From the NCBI RefSeq assembly GCF_035918235.1, contig NZ_CP109485.1:6063501-6127500 (forward strand): a stretch of DNA of 64,000 bases, written 5' to 3'. Below, piece after piece: positions 45,512 through 52,500 of the stretch. How positions within the stretch are numbered: the first letter of the stretch is position 1; each line of letters begins with the position of its first letter. The notes under the pieces were generated by a model. The model did no database searches. It was given only the letters and a program-made list of their open reading frames with translations, and was not told where the DNA came from. Source of the stretch: Streptomyces sp. NBC_01445. GTDB lineage: Bacteria; Actinomycetota; Actinomycetes; Streptomycetales; Streptomycetaceae. Both the position numbers and the translations under genes were made by a program.

Positions 45512-46819
45512 CTAGCGCACGACCACGAAGTCACCGGCGTCGCGCGCCGGGCGCTCCGCAGGTGCGACGGCCGCGTGCCCCACGGCCACGGCGCCCATCG
45601 GGTCCCACTCCTGCGGAAGGCCGAGCACCTCGCGTACGACATCGCGGCAGAACATCGTCGACGACACCCACGCGGAGCCGAGCCGCTCACCGGCGAGCGC
45701 GACCAGGAAGTTCTGCACGCCCGCGCCGGCCGCGACCACGAACATCTCCCGCTCGGCGGCGTCCCGGCGCGCGTGCCCGTACGTGTGCGACCCGTCCATC
45801 ACCATGCACGGCACGACCAGATACGGCGCCTGGCGCAGCACGTCACCGCGGCGCACGCGCTTGGCGACGGACTCCTCGCTCTTGCCGTCGCGCCGCAGAT
45901 CCTCGATCCACGCGTCCCGCATCGCGTCGAGCAGCCGTACGCGCGACTCCTCGGACTCCAGGAGCACGAACCGCCACGGCGTCGTGTGGTGCGGGGCGGG
46001 CGCCGTCACGGCCGCGGCGACCGCGCGCCGCACGGCTCCCGGGTCGACCGGCTCGTCCGTGAAGGCCCGCACCGTACGCCGCTGGGTCACGGCCTCCCGT
46101 ACGGCCTCGGACGTGCCGAGCCGGAACATGTCGTCCCGCGCTACGCGCACCAGCTCGCGCGCGCCGGTGCCCTCGCCCACCACGTGCGCGAGCCCGCGCA
46201 CGACGGCGACGGGCAGCCCGGCCGCCTTGCCCTTGACCAGGTCCCCGGCGGCGGCCAGCTCGTCCGCCGTGGCGACGACCGTGGCGCTGAGGGGATTGCC
46301 GTACGCGTCCGTGCCGCCGCGCAGGTCGTCGAGGACGTGCACGCCCGCGGCGCCGATGGCGACATCGGTCAGGCCGTTGCGCCAGGGGCGGCCGAAGGTG
46401 TCCGTCACGACGACCCCGACGTCCACGCCGAGTGTGTCCCGCAGCCCGTCCCGGATCGCCGCGGCCGACGCGTCGGGGTCCTGGGGCAGCAGCAGCACCG
46501 TGCCCGCGGGCGTGTTCGACGCGTCGACGCCGGCCGCGGCCATGACCAGGCCCAGCTTGTTCTCGACGATGCGCAGGGGGCCGCGGCGCGCGACGACCCG
46601 TACGGTCTCGGCGTCTATGGCCGCCTCGCGGTCGGTGGCCTCGACGATCCGGCCCTCGGCCTTGCTGACGATCTTCGAGGTGACCAGTAGTACGTCCCCG
46701 TCGACGAGGCCGGGCTCGGCGGTGGCGATCAGCTTGGCGAGGTCGTCGCCCTCGCGGACCTCGGGGATGCCGGGGAGCGCCCAGGCACGGAAGGAGGGAG
46801 CGGAGGGAGTGTCACTCAC
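45512..46819 (-). CDS. fbiB: Bifunctional F420-0:gamma-glutamyl ligase / FMN-dependent dehydro-F420 reductase (FbiB)
   Basis: A 435-residue fusion protein for coenzyme F420 maturation. Residues ~1-240 are CofE-like and add gamma-linked glutamates to F420-0 using [38 protein letters not shown]. Residues ~245-435 are a nitroreductase-like FMN domain ([40 protein letters not shown]) that in actinobacteria reduces dehydro-F420-0. The GTG start at 46819 overlaps the fbiA stop by four bases. The two-domain fusion is typical of actinobacteria. Confidence 0.95.
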
Positions 46820-47775
46820 GCGCGGACCTCCTCCGCGAGCGTGAGCGCCTCACGCGCCATCTGCGTCGTCGCGTCCAGGTCGGACATCATCAGCGGCACC
46901 GCGCGGCAGCGGATGCCCGCCGACTCGACGCGCTCCACCGTGCCGGCGTCCACCGTGTCGACGAGCCATCCGTCGAGCAGCCCCGACCCGTAGTGCTCGG
47001 CGACCGCGGCGGCCGTCGAGTCGACACCCACGGCGGCGAGGACCTTGTCGGCCATGCCGCGCACGGGCGCGTCCCCGACGATGGGCGACAGGCCGACAAC
47101 GGGCACACCGGCTTCGGCGATGGCCTCGCGGATGCCCGGCACGGCGAGGATGGTCCCGACGCTGACGACGGGGTTGGACGGCGGGAAGAGGATGACGTCC
47201 GCCTCGGCGATGGCCTCCAGGACACCCGGCGCGGGCTTGGCCTGCTCGGCGCCGACGGGCACCACGGCGTGCGCGTCCACAGAGGCCCGCAGCTTCACCC
47301 AGTACTCCTGGAAGTGCACGGCCCTGCGCTCCCCGTCGAGGGTCACCGCCACATGCGTCTCGACGCGGTCGTCGGACATCGGGATGAGCCGCACGCCGGG
47401 CTTCCAGCGCTCGCACAGCGCCTCGGTGACCGCGCTGAGCGGATAGCCGGCGCCCAGCATCTGCGTACGGACGATGTGGGTCGCGAAGTCCCGGTCGCCG
47501 AGACCGAACCACTCGGGCCCCACCCCGTAGGCGGCCAGCTCCTCCTTGACCAGATACGTCTCGTCCGTACGTCCCCAGCCCTGCTCCTCGTTGATGCCAC
47601 CGCCGAGCGTGTACATCACCGTGTCGAGGTCCGGACAGACCTTCAGGCCGAAGAGATGGATGTCGTCCCCGGTGTTGCCGATGACCGTGATGACCGCGTC
47701 GTCCGGCGCCGCCTGCTTGAGACCGCGAAGGAACCGGGCACCACCGATGCCGCCTGCCAGAACCACAATGCGCAT
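46816..47775 (-). CDS. fbiA: 2-phospho-L-lactate transferase / FbiA (CofD)
   Basis: A 319-residue CofD-family enzyme that joins the activated phospho-three-carbon moiety to the deazaflavin Fo, giving dehydro-F420-0 or F420-0. Motifs are [16 protein letters not shown] at the N-terminus, [19 protein letters not shown], and [11 protein letters not shown] near residue 200. It is translationally coupled to fbiB. The ATG is at 47775. Fo synthase is not in this window. Confidence 0.96.
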
Positions 47776-47808
47776 GTGCCCAGCATCGCAGGCGGGTACG
47801 ACACTTCG

Positions 47809-48312
47809 TCAGGCGGTCACGGCATCCTGCATGGCGTCGCTGACGCAGCGGGGGGCGTGCATGGGCATCTCGGTGAGCCCGGGGTAGTACACATGGAGGC
47901 TGACTGCGGGCTCCAGCGCGTCGTTGACGACCTCGTGGACGTATCCGGGAGCGAAGACGCGCTGTGCGCCGGGCGCGAGGGTGCGGGCGCCGCGCTCCGA
48001 ACGCTCCGTCAGCTCACCCTGGAGGACGGTCAGTATGCCGGAGGAGCGGCCGTGGTCGTGCAGTCCGCTGCCCTGCCCGGGCACCCAGGACAGCAGCCAG
48101 ACCTCGTAGCCGGGGCCGGTCTGGAGCCGGTGGTACCAGCGGCTGGTGGCGTCGTACTCGACGAGGTGTTCCCACCGGCCGCGGTCGGCGGCGATGGTGC
48201 GGGCCAGGCCGGCGAACTCGGCGACGGTGGCCGGGTGCTCGCGCGCGGGCTGGAGCAGGTGGGGTACTTCGAGGATGTCGCCGGCGATCTGCAGGTCGCT
48301 GTCACTGTTCAT
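47809..48312 (-). CDS. Cysteine dioxygenase family protein
   Basis: A 167-residue cupin protein. The non-haem iron ligands are in [10 protein letters not shown] and the later VHEVVNDA; the intervening strand reads [11 protein letters not shown]. Bacterial cysteine dioxygenase oxidises L-cysteine to cysteine sulphinate, lowering toxic cysteine. The ATG at 48312 follows GAGGAG by 11 bases. That GAGGAG is complementary to CTCCTCG about 105 bases upstream, and a short leader ORF with a run of Cys codons lies further upstream, so expression is likely cysteine-controlled. Related thiol dioxygenases cannot be excluded, but the leader favours cysteine. Confidence 0.9.
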
Positions 48313-48323
48313 GGGTACGGGGG

Positions 48324-48437
48324 CTCCTCGGCGGAGTGCGGAGTGCGGGGTGCGGTGTGCGGTGTGCTGGGGGTGTCGCTGGACGGCGCCCGGCACGGAT
48401 GAACTGCCGGGGGAGTGGAGCGCGGTGGAGCGAGGAG
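48324..48437 (-). promoter_or_regulatory. Predicted Shine-Dalgarno / anti-Shine-Dalgarno pairing in the CDO leader
   Basis: Read on the minus strand, CTCCTCG (48437-48431) is perfectly complementary to CGAGGAG (48330-48324), the ribosome-binding site of cysteine dioxygenase. The anti-SD is flanked by two direct copies of CCACCGCGCTCC (48457-48446 and 48428-48417). Pairing would hide the start region. Translation of the upstream Cys-codon ORF could shift this fold. Confidence 0.45.
48333..48367. repeat. Five tandem 7-bp units in the CDO leader
   Basis: GGAGTGC, GGAGTGC, GGGGTGC, GGTGTGC, GGTGTGC run head to tail on the plus strand, immediately 5' of the cysteine dioxygenase ribosome-binding site on the minus strand. 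Confidence 0.8.
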
Positions 48438-48459
48438 ATTCAGCCGGAGCGCGGTGGGC

Positions 48460-48549
48460 TCAACAGCTGGGACAGCAACAGCAACAGCGCGCGTGGGCAG
48501 CACCGAGGGACCCGGGTCGGGTCACGGAAAGCGCCAAGTTCGCGAGCAT
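48460..48549 (-). CDS. Cysteine-rich leader peptide (29 codons) upstream of cysteine dioxygenase
   Basis: A short ORF reads MLANLALSVT, then RPGSLGAAHA, then RCCCCCPSC, with five consecutive and one further Cys codon (TGT/TGC) just before the stop. Such a run is very unlikely by chance beside a cysteine-metabolising gene and matches the cysteine-responsive upstream ORFs of actinobacteria. TTGACA (48585-48580) lies 17 bases from TGTCCT (48562-48557), which would place the transcript start at the A of the ATG, so it is probably leaderless. No ribosome-binding site is correctly spaced. The dioxygenase starts 147 bases downstream. Confidence 0.8.
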   Translation of the reverse strand: MLANLALSVTRPGSLGAAHARCCCCCPSC

Positions 48550-48556
48550 GCCCACC

Positions 48557-48585
48557 AGGACACCGGTTCATTCCTCCTCTGTCAA
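48557..48585 (-). promoter_or_regulatory. Promoter for the Cys leader ORF and cysteine dioxygenase
   Basis: A consensus TTGACA (48585-48580), a 17-base spacer and TGTCCT (48562-48557) are followed seven bases later by the ATG of the Cys-rich leader ORF. The -10 is weak; the geometry predicts a leaderless mRNA. Confidence 0.6.
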
Positions 48586-49037
48586 CTAGGTGTCCGGATT
48601 GTGGGATATGTTTCACCTCATCCGGTTGTCGTGCCAGGCGAAAGGTTTGTTCAGCTTCCGGCCGGGACACATGGCGCATCAACCGGGCGCACAAACGCCG
48701 TCGCGCTCCCGTGATCCGAATGTGATCCGGAACGCTCCGGCGCCGCTCCCGGAACGGGATCAACGCTCCAGGCGTCCTCCCTTGCAGAGGCCCGCGCGAG
48801 GTCTGCCGGAGCTCTCGGGGGAGCGACGACCGGGATGGGCCTCTGGCAAGTGTCAAGGTATATGCCGATTTGAACACTTTCCGCATACCCTTGGTTCCGC
48901 AGAGTGAATAAGGGACCCAATAGCAGATCTCGGCTTGACTGGCCCGGATCGGCACACTTGTAATTTCACTCGTGTCGTTCAGCCGAAAACGGTAGCGGCA
49001 GCATCACGGGGACGCACAGACGGACGAGGGGCGCACT
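48586..49037. other. Divergent region upstream of whiB
   Basis: About 450 bases between the cysteine dioxygenase promoter and whiB. It has an A/T-rich stretch at 48855-48925 and a promoter candidate at 48935-48964. I see no supported open frame; a minus-strand frame across 48440-48955 lacks a ribosome-binding site and conflicts with the Cys leader. Confidence 0.5.
48935..48964 (+). promoter_or_regulatory. Candidate whiB promoter
   Basis: TTGACT (48935-48940) and TGTAAT (48959-48964) are separated by 18 bases, giving a start near 48971 and a ~67-base leader. TTCACTCGTGTCG just downstream (48964-48976) contains two halves resembling a BldD box but with a shorter centre than the consensus, so BldD control is only a possibility. 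Confidence 0.5.
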
Positions 49038-49301
49038 ATGACCGAGTCGTTTCAGCAACTGCTGGTCGAGGACGCGGAAGAGGAACTCGGCTGGCAGGAG
49101 CGCGCGCTGTGCGCCCAGACCGACCCCGAGTCGTTCTTCCCGGAGAAGGGCGGCTCCACCCGGGAGGCCAAGAAGGTCTGCCTCGCCTGCGAGGTCAGGT
49201 CCGAGTGCCTCGAGTACGCACTGGCCAACGACGAGCGGTTCGGCATCTGGGGCGGCCTCTCCGAGCGGGAGCGGCGCCGCCTGAAGAAGGCCGCTGTCTG
49301 A
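49038..49301 (+). CDS. whiB: WhiB transcriptional regulator
   Basis: An 87-residue iron-sulphur Wbl protein, the sporulation regulator WhiB. Four cysteines at residues 25, 48, 51 and 57 (C-X22-C-X2-C-X5-C) bind the [4Fe-4S] cluster. The beta-turn GIWGG and the basic C-terminus SERERRRLKKAAV contact sigma-HrdB and DNA. WhiB works with WhiA in sporulation septation. The sequence matches WhiB itself rather than other Wbl proteins as far as I recall. The stop codon closes the first unit of a three-unit 12-bp tandem repeat. Confidence 0.95.
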   Translation: MTESFQQLLVEDAEEELGWQERALCAQTDPESFFPEKGGSTREAKKVCLACEVRSECLEYALANDERFGIWGGLSERERRRLKKAAV

Positions 49302-49575: not shown

Positions 49576-52500
49576 ATGTCCGTGCACAGCCATTCGGCAG
49601 GCCAATTCGACACTGCCGCAGCCGCGTTCAACCCGGGGCACGCCGCAGGTCCAGACCCGACCCGGCCACCCGAGTTCCCCAGACATGTCGTCACCGCCGT
49701 GCTCGTCTCCCACGACGGAGCGCGCTGGCTGCCCGACGTCCTGTCAGGGTTGCTCGGCCAGGAGCGCCCCGTACAGAACGCCGTAGCCGCCGACACCGGC
49801 AGCGCGGACGCCTCCGCCACGCTGATCGCCGACGCGATCGGTGACGAGCGCGTTCTCCACCTGGCGCGGCGCACCGGCTTCGGCCAGGCCGTCGACGAAG
49901 CGGCGCGTACCGCGGGAGTGCTGACTCCCGAGGAGCTGCCGTACCTCAAGCGCCCCAGCGGCTGGGACCCCGTCAGCCGCACCTGGCGCGACGACGCCTA
50001 CGACATGCCGGAGCTCCCGCACGGCGAGCCCGAGCAGTGGCTGTGGCTCCTGCACGACGACTGCGCGCCCGAGCCCGACGCGCTCGCCGAACTCCTGCGC
50101 GTCGTCGAGAACGAGCGCGAGATCGGCAACGAGGTCGCCGTCGTCGGACCCAAGCTCCTCGGCTGGTACGACCGCAGGCAGCTCCTCGAGGTCGGCGTCT
50201 CCATCGCCAACTCGGGGCGCCGTTGGACCGGCCTCGACCGCCGCGAGCAGGACCAGGGGCAGCACGACCACGTGCGGCCCGTCCTGTCCGTGTCCACCGC
50301 GGGCATGCTGATCCGGCGCGATGTCTTCGAGCAGCTCGGCGGGTTCGACCGCAGGCTGCCCCTGATGCGCGACGACGTCGACCTGTGCTGGCGCGCGCAG
50401 GCCGCCGGCCACCGCGTCGTCATCGCCCCCGACGCCGTCGTCCGGCACGCCGAGGCCTCCTCGCGCGAGCGCCGCACCGTCGACTGCGTGGGCCGCACGG
50501 CGACGTCACCGCACAAGGTCGACAAGGCCGGCGCCGTCTACACCCTGCTCGTCAACGCCAGTACGGCCGTGCTGCCCTGGGTGCTCCTGCGCCTCGTCAT
50601 CGGCACGCTGGCGCGCACGCTCGCGTACCTCGTCGGCAAGGTTCCCGGCCAGGCGCTCGACGAGATCACCGGACTCCTCGGCACCCTGCTGCGGCCCGAG
50701 CGGATCCTCGCGGCCCGCCGCAGGCGCGGCAGGGGAGTGGTCGACGCCAAGGAGCTGCGGCCGCTCTTCCCGCCGCCGGGCGCCACGGTCCGGCTCACCG
50801 TCGAGCAGGTCGCGGGCAGCGTCTTCGGCGCGTCCGACCCCGAGATCAACGCCGCGGGACGGCACGGCAGCGCCGTCGAGTCCGGCCCCGGCGGCGACGA
50901 CGCGGACTTCCTGGAGATCGAGCAGTTCGCCCGCCTCAAGCGCATCGCCCGCAAGCCGGGACCGGTGCTCTTCGTAGTGCTGCTGTTCGTCTCGCTCATC
51001 GCCTGCCGCGCGCTGCTCGGCGGCGGGGCGCTCGCGGGCGGCGCGCTGCTGCCCGCCCCGGGTGACGCGTCCGCCCTGTGGTCGCGCTATCTCGACGGCT
51101 GGCACCCGGCCGGCACGGGCGGCACGCAGTCCGCGCCGCCGTACCTGGCGGTCGTCGCCGCGTTCTCCACGCTCCTGTTCGGCTCGACCGGACTCGCCGT
51201 CACCGTGCTCCTCGTCTGCTCGGTGCCGCTCGCCGGCTTCACCGCCTACTTCGCCTCACGCCCCCTGGTCACCTCGCGCCTGCTGCGGGCGTGGGCCTCG
51301 GTCGCCTACGCCTTCCTGCCCGCCGCCACCGGCGCGCTCGCCGGCGGCCGGATCGGCACCGCGGTCCTCGCGATCCTGCTGCCGCTCATCGCGCGCGCGG
51401 GGTTGTCCGCCAGCGGCTTGATGAACCACGCGGGGGCGCGCGGCAGCTGGCGCGCAACCTGGGCGTACGCCCTCCTGCTGACTGTCACGACGGCCTTCAC
51501 GCCCATCGTGTGGCCGATCGCGCTCGTCCTCGGCATCGCGCTCCTCGCGGTCCGCCGCGGCGACATCACCGCGTACGGGCTCCGCTTCCTGGCCGCGCTC
51601 GGCACCCCGCTCCTGATGCTCGCGCCGTGGTCCCTGACGCTGCTGCCGTTCGGCTTCTTCAAGGAGGCCGGCCTCCCGTACGGCAAGGGGTCGGCGTCCG
51701 CGCTCGGACTGCTCGGCGCCTCGCCCGGCGGCTCCGGCACCCTCGGTGGACTGCTGCTCATCGGCATCGTCCTCGCCGGGCTCGCCGCGCTCCTGCGCAC
51801 CGAGCGCCGCCCCGCGGTCCTCACCGCCTGGGCGATCGCCCTGGTGGCCCTGGTCTTCGCGGCCCTGTCGAACAGCTCGGCCTGGGCCGGACCCGCGACC
51901 CTCGTCTACGGCATCGCCCTCCTCGCCGCCGCCGTGCTCGGCGCCGAGGGGGCACGCTCGCGCGTGGCCGAGCAGAGCTTCGGCTGGCGGCAGCCGGTGG
52001 CGGCCCTCATCGCGTTCGCCGCGGTGGCCGGACCGCTGCTCGCCGCGGCGGGCTGGATGATCCGCGGGGCCGACGGCCCCCTGGAGCGCCGCGACCCCAC
52101 CCAGGTGCCCGCGTTCGTCGCCGAGGAGAGCGACACCCAGGACCAGGCCCGCACCCTCGTCATGGACAGCGACTCGGCCGCCAGGGTGTCGTACACGCTG
52201 GTCCGCGGCGCCGGCGCGCGCCTCGGTGACGGCGAACTGACCGAGGCGGGCGGCAGCAACAAGAAGCTCGACAAGGTCGTCGCCAACCTCGTCGCCGGCT
52301 CCGGCGCCGACCAGGCCGACCAGCTCGGCGGCTTCGCCGTGCGCTACGTCCTCGTACGCGCGGGCGCGCCCCGGCAGATGACCCGCGTCCTCGACTCCAC
52401 GCCCGGCCTGTCCCGGCTCAGCCAGCAGGACGGCACCGCCCTGTGGCGCGTGGACCGGCAGGTCTCGCGCGCCGCGATCGTGTCCGGGTCCGACGAGCCG

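Follow-up and report, generated by a model that had tools for sequence, protein, structure and literature searches.

Why should the gene of a cysteine dioxygenase be preceded by a short open reading frame (ORF) that carries a run of cysteine codons, and by what means could this ORF act on it? The locus lies in a stretch of 64,000 nucleotides of the Streptomyces sp. NBC_01445 genome, which is called the window below; its features are collected in Table 1, and other loci are given L numbers where they have to be told apart. The best PDB matches of the protein bear the name cysteine dioxygenase, and the leader ORF is found 147 nt upstream of its start. Behind the dioxygenase gene comes cofD, on the same strand, with an F420 ligase/nitroreductase gene after it; dioxygenase and cofD possibly form an operon. 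The closest named relative among those listed is Streptomyces sp. NBC_01446 (dioxygenase 96% identical). The genome of the window has a distant second cupin/dioxygenase paralogue (G000:C1:3520775-3521131; 42-47% identity), for which no Cys-rich leader is found within the fetched stretch.

Table 1. Features of the dioxygenase locus (window positions)
Feature	Position	Strand	Remark
-35 element TTGACA	48585-48580	-	read from the sequence; spacing kept in relatives
-10-like element TGTCCT	48562-48557	-	N17 after TTGACA; predicted leaderless start at 48549
Leader ORF	48549-48460	-	29 codons, encodes MLANLALSVTRPGSLGAAHARCCCCCPSC, TGA stop included
Hairpin H0 (GACCC...GGGTC)	48509..48523	-	inside the leader ORF; covariation
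Five consecutive Cys codons (TGT TGC TGT TGC TGT)	48472..48486	-	candidate sensor; would be antisense to the start of the dioxygenase
Sixth Cys codon	48465-48463	-	leader ORF, before the stop
Hairpin H1 (CAGCTG..GAGC / GCTCCGGCTG)	48441..48469	-	spans the last Cys codon and the stop
C-rich, G-poor spacer	48331..48459	-	measured as C minus G
Dioxygenase ribosome-binding site CGAGGAG	48330-48324	-	window sequence
Dioxygenase start codon and codons 2-6 (MNSDSD)	48295..48312	-	48308-48295 pairs with Cys tract 48485-48472 (predicted fold)
Cysteine dioxygenase CDS	48312-47809	-	Pfam CDO_I, 73.4 bits
cofD (F420 biosynthesis)	46816..47775	-	33 nt 3' of the dioxygenase
whiB-type gene	49038..49301	+	divergent from the dioxygenase

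A sequence-only reading of the window had described the leader as a 29-codon ORF with five Cys codons in a row and a sixth before its stop, and as preceded by TTGACA-N17-TGTCCT ending 7 nt before the ATG; coordinates and sequence of both agree with the window. From the promoter spacing we infer that the leader mRNA probably starts at the leader ATG, i.e. that it is leaderless. A consensus scan finds no TTGACA/TATAAT-type promoter at the leader, and in the alignment of leaders the -10 region is a T/C-rich TNTCCT that is kept in relatives. The usual -10 element of Streptomyces lividans is TANNNT according to the part of its reannotation that covers promoters (PMC8079986), and the conserved TNTCCT does not fit it. 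A perfect TTGACA combined with a conserved non-standard -10 element is found genus-wide (48585-48550 in the window). An overlapping ORF in another frame (48571-48440, minus strand) has a strong AGGAGGA just 5' of its ATG and terminates directly 5' of CTCCTCG, the proposed anti-Shine-Dalgarno (anti-SD) sequence; this SD-led ORF was rejected, being absent in the relatives compared.

The leader is widely conserved. We collected 170 loci of the same genus: 80 named ones (the best 80 of 565 relatives), 29 more that were collected automatically in a search of 150 genomes of the genus, 60 that come for the most part from the divergent end of this search, and the window; several species are represented twice. 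When a leader is taken to be an ORF with at least three Cys in its last 14 codons that ends 20-330 nt before the dioxygenase start, 163 of the 170 loci have one, so that the hallmark of the mycobacterial type of attenuator, a conserved short ORF with a Cys tract before a cysteine-metabolism gene (here CDO_I), is found. Conserved Cys codons, for which the earlier reading suggested looking in an alignment among Streptomyces, are present; a dioxygenase kept without such a leader, which would speak against it, does occur, in only seven loci (L147, L157, L159, L160, L161, L163 and L166). Six of these seven have a different dioxygenase N-terminus and all seven a weaker SD match, and in the case of L147 the 330-nt limit excludes a leader-like ORF that lies 477 nt upstream. 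TGA is the stop of all 163 leaders, and TTGACA is found 30-40 nt before an in-frame ATG in all 163, a count that is partly due to selection because the ATG was picked by this very rule; the distance is 36 or 37 nt in 154 leaders and 30-35 nt in the remaining nine. The number of Cys in the last 14 codons ranges from three to seven (first 110 loci). With promoter and Cys codons both kept across the genus, the proposed tie between a leaderless-type poly-Cys ORF and the dioxygenase is supported.

The dioxygenase itself is present in 149 of 150 genomes of the genus and in all 150 genomes of the family; outside the family it is patchy (68 out of 148 genomes drawn from the class). Other genera of Streptomycetaceae have the Cys-rich ORF in 38 of 40 loci when 3 Cys are required among the last 14 or 16 codons, a few cases being doubtful (e.g. 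L260, L261 and L267): 18 of 20 in a first set (20 loci from 16 genera) and 20 of 20 in a second (20 further loci from three of these genera). In the second set TTGACA precedes the ATG in 19 of the 20 loci (the exception is L307).

A run of four Cys codons (TGYTGYTGYTGY) is by itself not above chance: 11.47 Mb contain 75 matches, versus 98 for a reversed-pattern control. Chance is rejected because the leader is conserved, the bare Cys run being at chance level. We also scanned the genome for other Cys leaders, covering 73 of the 75 four-Cys runs, all 20 CxCxxC-stop matches and 30 of the 40 CCCx-stop matches, with a filter that asks for an ATG or GTG at a distance of 13-55 codons upstream of the stop and for a long ORF 20-350 nt downstream of it. 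Two candidates were left, the dioxygenase leader and L200; the latter, around 1500, is a short ORF (MVYGGGVCWCCCC) located 225 nt before a 181-codon ORF, and is possibly spurious. Codon choice in the leaders is unusual: Cys codons among the last 20 leader codons are TGT 598 : TGC 163, as opposed to TGT 65 : TGC 415 in the genome (predicted genes of the window and seven 20-kb stretches). This TGT bias fits pairing with the dioxygenase start.

How, then, might the leader act? The sequence-only reading had proposed an anti-SD helix 3' of the ORF, and full translation of the leader at high cysteine was to turn the gene ON. Its sequence elements are there: CTCCTCG at 48437-48431 complements CGAGGAG (48330-48324) perfectly, and the 12-mer CCACCGCGCTCC occurs twice around CTCCTCG. 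Neither the anti-SD nor the duplication is conserved, however: L004, the nearest relative among those listed, has CCCCTCG, CGAGGAA and a single copy of the 12-mer. (The spacer of the window, at 147 nt, is 30 nt longer than the 117 nt of L004, and carries the duplicated CCACCGCGCTCC that is absent from L004.) The proposed helix is not supported across the leaders either: spacer:SD duplexes are no stronger than those of dinucleotide shuffles (mean z +0.24, n=125; window z +0.12). Folding with and without a simulated ribosome at the Cys codons, the other check suggested, gives a mean shift in SD access of 0.019, versus 0.021 with shuffled spacers; among the single loci the shift exceeds 0.1 in 27 out of 125, upwards in 21 and downwards in six. 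A different candidate partner of the SD, the conserved CTCCRGC of H1, was rejected, since this pairing is broken in many divergent loci (judged by eye).

Rather, the folding models indicate that the sequestering element would be the Cys-codon tract itself, which pairs with the first dioxygenase codons. The minimum-energy fold pairs the two in five out of six loci (the window, L004, L056, L068 and L131, not L117), and the paired start sequence is AUG AAC AGC GAC AGC GAC in most folded loci. We simulated a ribosome as a 27-nt mask at the Cys codons and read out the cost of opening -18..+15; left out were the seven loci without a leader by the rule, identical sequences, loci with a short flank and loci with no ATG where expected, so that n after filtering is script-specific (125, 132, 137, 143, 146 or 149). 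The mask lowers the opening cost from 19.0 by 8.18 kcal/mol on average (n=149), with a drop of more than 1 in 136 of the 149 Streptomyces leaders; no leader shows a rise above 1. Masking the leader stop gives a drop of 4.6, and control masks elsewhere give 1.3 and 0.8. Most of the effect is lost on changing codons on either side: the drop left is 1.86 after synonymous recoding of the leader tail (real larger in 135 of 149), 2.54 after recoding dioxygenase codons 2-8 (145 of 149) and 1.90 after permuting the leader codons (132 of 149). Both codon sets therefore look tuned beyond amino acid needs. By folding, the initiation region is predicted to be sequestered, and a ribosome on the Cys tract to free it.

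The size of the drop differs among dioxygenase N-termini: 9.4 and 10.2 kcal/mol for MNSDS with its two leader types, 9.7 for MNSDN and 4.4 for MNSD[V/L/T]. The drop holds in longer mRNAs, with means of 7.6, 7.0 and 6.2 on extension to +60, +150 and +300 (71 loci: the window and 70 random ones), but it is weak in the window by itself, which gives 6.6 when the fold includes 24 nt of coding sequence and 3.2, 4.2 and 0.7 at the three longer lengths. Thirteen of the 149 leaders show a drop below 1: L149, L151, L164 and a ten-locus clade (L115-L119, L121, L122, L129, L133 and L153; mean 0.1), in which the dioxygenase codons or N-terminus are changed and the Cys leader is kept. Most of this clade has an extra GGAGC..GCTCC-like hairpin 3' of the leader stop. 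Two further comparisons speak against the model. By plain duplex energy the start region is the best partner of the tract in only six of 96 loci (mean -26.3 vs -18.3 elsewhere), because other coding stretches pair equally well, and when leaders are swapped within Streptomyces, the own leader does better for only 10 of 24 start types.

Support for a joint change of leader and start comes from across the family, and in the other genera the folding results are mixed. In the first set, 16 loci were folded (L250, L261, L265 and L268 had no clear start or leader, and the genome of L268 has a second copy) and five show a drop of at least 3; in L252 the drop was bigger when the spacer was masked as a control than with the Cys mask. 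In the second set the drop is at least 3 in 12 of 20 loci, versus none of 20 when permuted, and 15 of the 20 exceed their own permuted control. In one genus the Cys tract carries GUCCCUG where the SD is CAGGGAC (L257, L291 and L299), and in the same genus AGGAAC is matched by GUUCCU (L258 and L293; the drop of L258 is only 1.0); L298, which is mismatched (GUUCCUG vs CAGGGAC), has a drop of 3.5 against 8.3-9.2. Loci of this genus that start with AUGAACAGCGACGU carry CUGUCGCUGUUCC instead (L292, L294 and L296), and in another genus GCUGUGUUGUC is paired with GACGACACAGC (L300 and L301). In 28 of 42 start-region clusters the own leader beats the foreign mean, and in 19 it belongs to the top quarter (Wilcoxon p 0.016, a value that ignores relatedness, the clusters being not independent).

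Two hairpins accompany the tract. H0 has 95.7% canonical cells over 137 distinct leaders, where 300 shuffles reach at most 94.4%, and one of its pairs (G-C in 98, A-T in 19) ranks second overall in the covariation scan and first among the mostly canonical pairs. The pair at the top of that scan, which joins columns that precede the start codon, was discarded as an alignment artefact, and the remaining pairs look like clade structure. H1, with 84.5% canonical cells, equals the best of 300 shuffles and shows A-U to G-C and C-G to U-A changes; in the predicted structure it would adjoin the helix of Cys tract and start. No Rfam family, riboswitches and T-boxes included, matches 47700-49300 up to E 5.

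The spacer that follows is C-rich: C minus G is +0.26 (n=146; +0.35 in the window) versus 0.00 in 68 control upstream regions, and 96% of the spacers lie above the 95th percentile of these controls. Such a composition would either prevent the spacer from becoming a rival partner of the Cys tract, or form a Rho site. The latter leads to Rho-dependent attenuation, in which the spacer would be a rut site and leader translation, together with H0 and H1, would decide whether Rho stops transcription before the dioxygenase. It would agree with a window leader in which a consensus scan (48290-48650) finds no intrinsic terminator, and Rho was proposed for mycobacterial cys leaders in the sections of Seliverstov 2005 that treat them (PMC1262725). 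The same composition would equally serve the first purpose, however, and attenuation by Rho does not account for the pairing that is lost on recoding the leader or dioxygenase codons 2-8, nor does its simple version yield a clear cysteine signal. We regard it as unlikely.

With some confidence we favour a translational attenuator like the poly-Cys ones of mycobacteria, here with an unexpected target. In mycobacteria, as Canestrari and others are said to have found in 2020, a ribosome on the poly-Cys tract reportedly unmasks the initiation region of the next gene, which is ON at low cysteine. Here, when no ribosome occupies the end of the leader, the Cys tract would fold onto the dioxygenase start region (in Streptomyces onto the start codon and codons 2-6, in some other genera onto the ribosome-binding site) and initiation would be blocked; a ribosome on the Cys codons would remove this antisense partner and the start region would open. 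Since it is a ribosome on the Cys codons that frees the start, low Cys-tRNA should mean ON: ribosomes would dwell longest on these codons when Cys-tRNA is scarce. A gene that is ON under cysteine shortage is odd for a cysteine-breakdown enzyme.

There is a published expression value that bears on the sign. We take SCO3035 of S. coelicolor to be the orthologue of the whiB-adjacent dioxygenase (whiB presumably being SCO3034). In an RNA-seq table its RNA is up 6.54-fold after 2 h of 0.15 mM H2O2, and it stands in a list that has ssu and cys genes at its head, together with cysA/SCO4165, cysM, SCO5772 and metNIQ (PMC4991794). We consider this rise supportive only, because the identity of SCO3035 is presumed and the source terms it hypothetical and ascribes the response to HbpS-SenS-SenR. 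The opposite sign put forward in the sequence-only reading, ON at high cysteine, is probably wrong, as both the predicted release of the start and the rise of SCO3035 favour ON at low cysteine.

The anti-SD helix with that opposite sign has to be weighed as a rival. Perfect complementarity in the window, a sign that suits a degradative enzyme and the 27 loci with a shift in SD access count in its favour; against these stand an anti-SD that the nearest relative has not kept, duplex energies and access at the level of shuffles, shifts that are mostly rises where they are large, and a SCO3035 transcript that goes up together with biosynthetic genes. We judge it distinctly improbable. The peptide itself might instead sense a thiol and stall the ribosome, in which case the Cys codons would make up no more than a part of the signal. 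The residues before the Cys codons are indeed conserved (GSLGAARARC, GFRSAVQARC, YGSRCAVQARC), and residues of the RRAV/RRAA type precede Cys both in further genera and in mycobacteria-like cysA leaders, but part of this conservation is RNA, since H0 covaries, and the number of Cys varies from leader to leader; there is little to be said for an arrest peptide on balance. Least of all would we expect the leader to be a functional small Cys-rich protein that binds a metal or thiol and regulates nothing: the peptide is indeed conserved and has several Cys, but the codon choice is tuned to the start of the downstream gene and the leader is found only before the dioxygenase among the examined Cys-run loci of the genome, bar candidate L200.

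The attenuator reading can be taken further, to Cys codons that double as an antisense clamp and are re-tuned with the start across genera, and to a gene that is ON under shortage with a product annotated as cysteine-destroying; we offer this combination tentatively and with more doubt than belief. If true, the dioxygenase would be part of a sulfur-starvation or oxidative-stress response and not a simple cysteine degrader, its substrate being perhaps another thiol from which sulfite would be recovered. Because the sign looks wrong for a degradative enzyme, what cysteine dioxygenase does in the physiology of bacteria becomes open to direct test. Ribosome-sensed cysteine control would also be carried from mycobacteria to the antibiotic-producing streptomycetes, by one element kept in nearly all loci examined.

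The principle is known from mycobacteria; target and family are new, and the tract itself would be antisense to the start. Mycobacterial poly-Cys leaderless short ORFs are described in the relevant part of Shell 2015 (PMC4633059). The dioxygenase leader is like these attenuators in being a short leaderless-type ORF with a Cys tract near its end before a cysteine-metabolism gene, and unlike them in its target, which is cysteine dioxygenase and not a cysteine-biosynthesis or sulfur-transfer gene, and in its spread across Streptomycetaceae; set beside them, it has a tract that is itself the predicted antisense to the start codon region, a covarying hairpin in the ORF and another at the stop. Seliverstov 2005 gives, in its account of cys leaders, examples in Mycobacterium and P. 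acnes and before cbs of B. longum, which likewise have Cys runs near the leader stop and no intrinsic terminator; for Streptomyces its text on that genus mentions trp, leu, ilv and trpS/leuS elements, a cys leader not being among them (PMC1262725). The LEU element before leuA, as outlined there, is similar in that codons for the sensed amino acid are paired to the initiation region of the gene that follows, and differs in sensing leucine, in a proposed pseudoknot, in its biosynthetic gene and in pairing with the Shine-Dalgarno box (PMC1262725). In S. lividans, metL before metNIQ is leaderless and has clustered Cys and Met codons, but only three Cys and a transporter operon as its target, and is reported as a methionine leader; the table of that reannotation holds eight leaders, none for cysteine (PMC8079986). 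The literature searched, with most subscription papers outside its reach, contains no description of a leader of the Streptomyces dioxygenase.

Other sulfur genes were looked at as well. In the genome of the window, none of the ORFs upstream of cysA/sseC and of sulfite reductase has 3 Cys among its final 14 codons; upstream of metN there is one that does. The metNIQ genes of this genome have a leader (L367; MTTTSSRTLATEATMTPGARCMCRMCAF) with its ORF end at 514 and the metN start at 712. Its Cys and Met codons are like those of S. lividans metL, which may respond to cysteine as well as to methionine. Mycobacteria-like cysA leaders, used as a positive control for the folding, provided two clear candidates only, with drops of 0.9 and 5.5. 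The cysA leaders L370 and L373 (RRRAIDFCRVANCCC and RRAVDLCRVATCLC) resemble the dioxygenase leaders L305, L300 and L106 outside the Cys codons (the compared dioxygenase leader ends are RRAVNFCCRLCSCC, RRAASALCCRC and FRSAVQARCCC), a likeness that suggests a common origin or a shared peptide constraint. In the first 170 kb of contigs C1 and C2 of the genome of the window (G000), pattern matches are found at 49650/49648, 69852/69850, 159450/159448 and 168493/168491; as these coordinates are nearly identical, a long end sequence may be common to both contigs.
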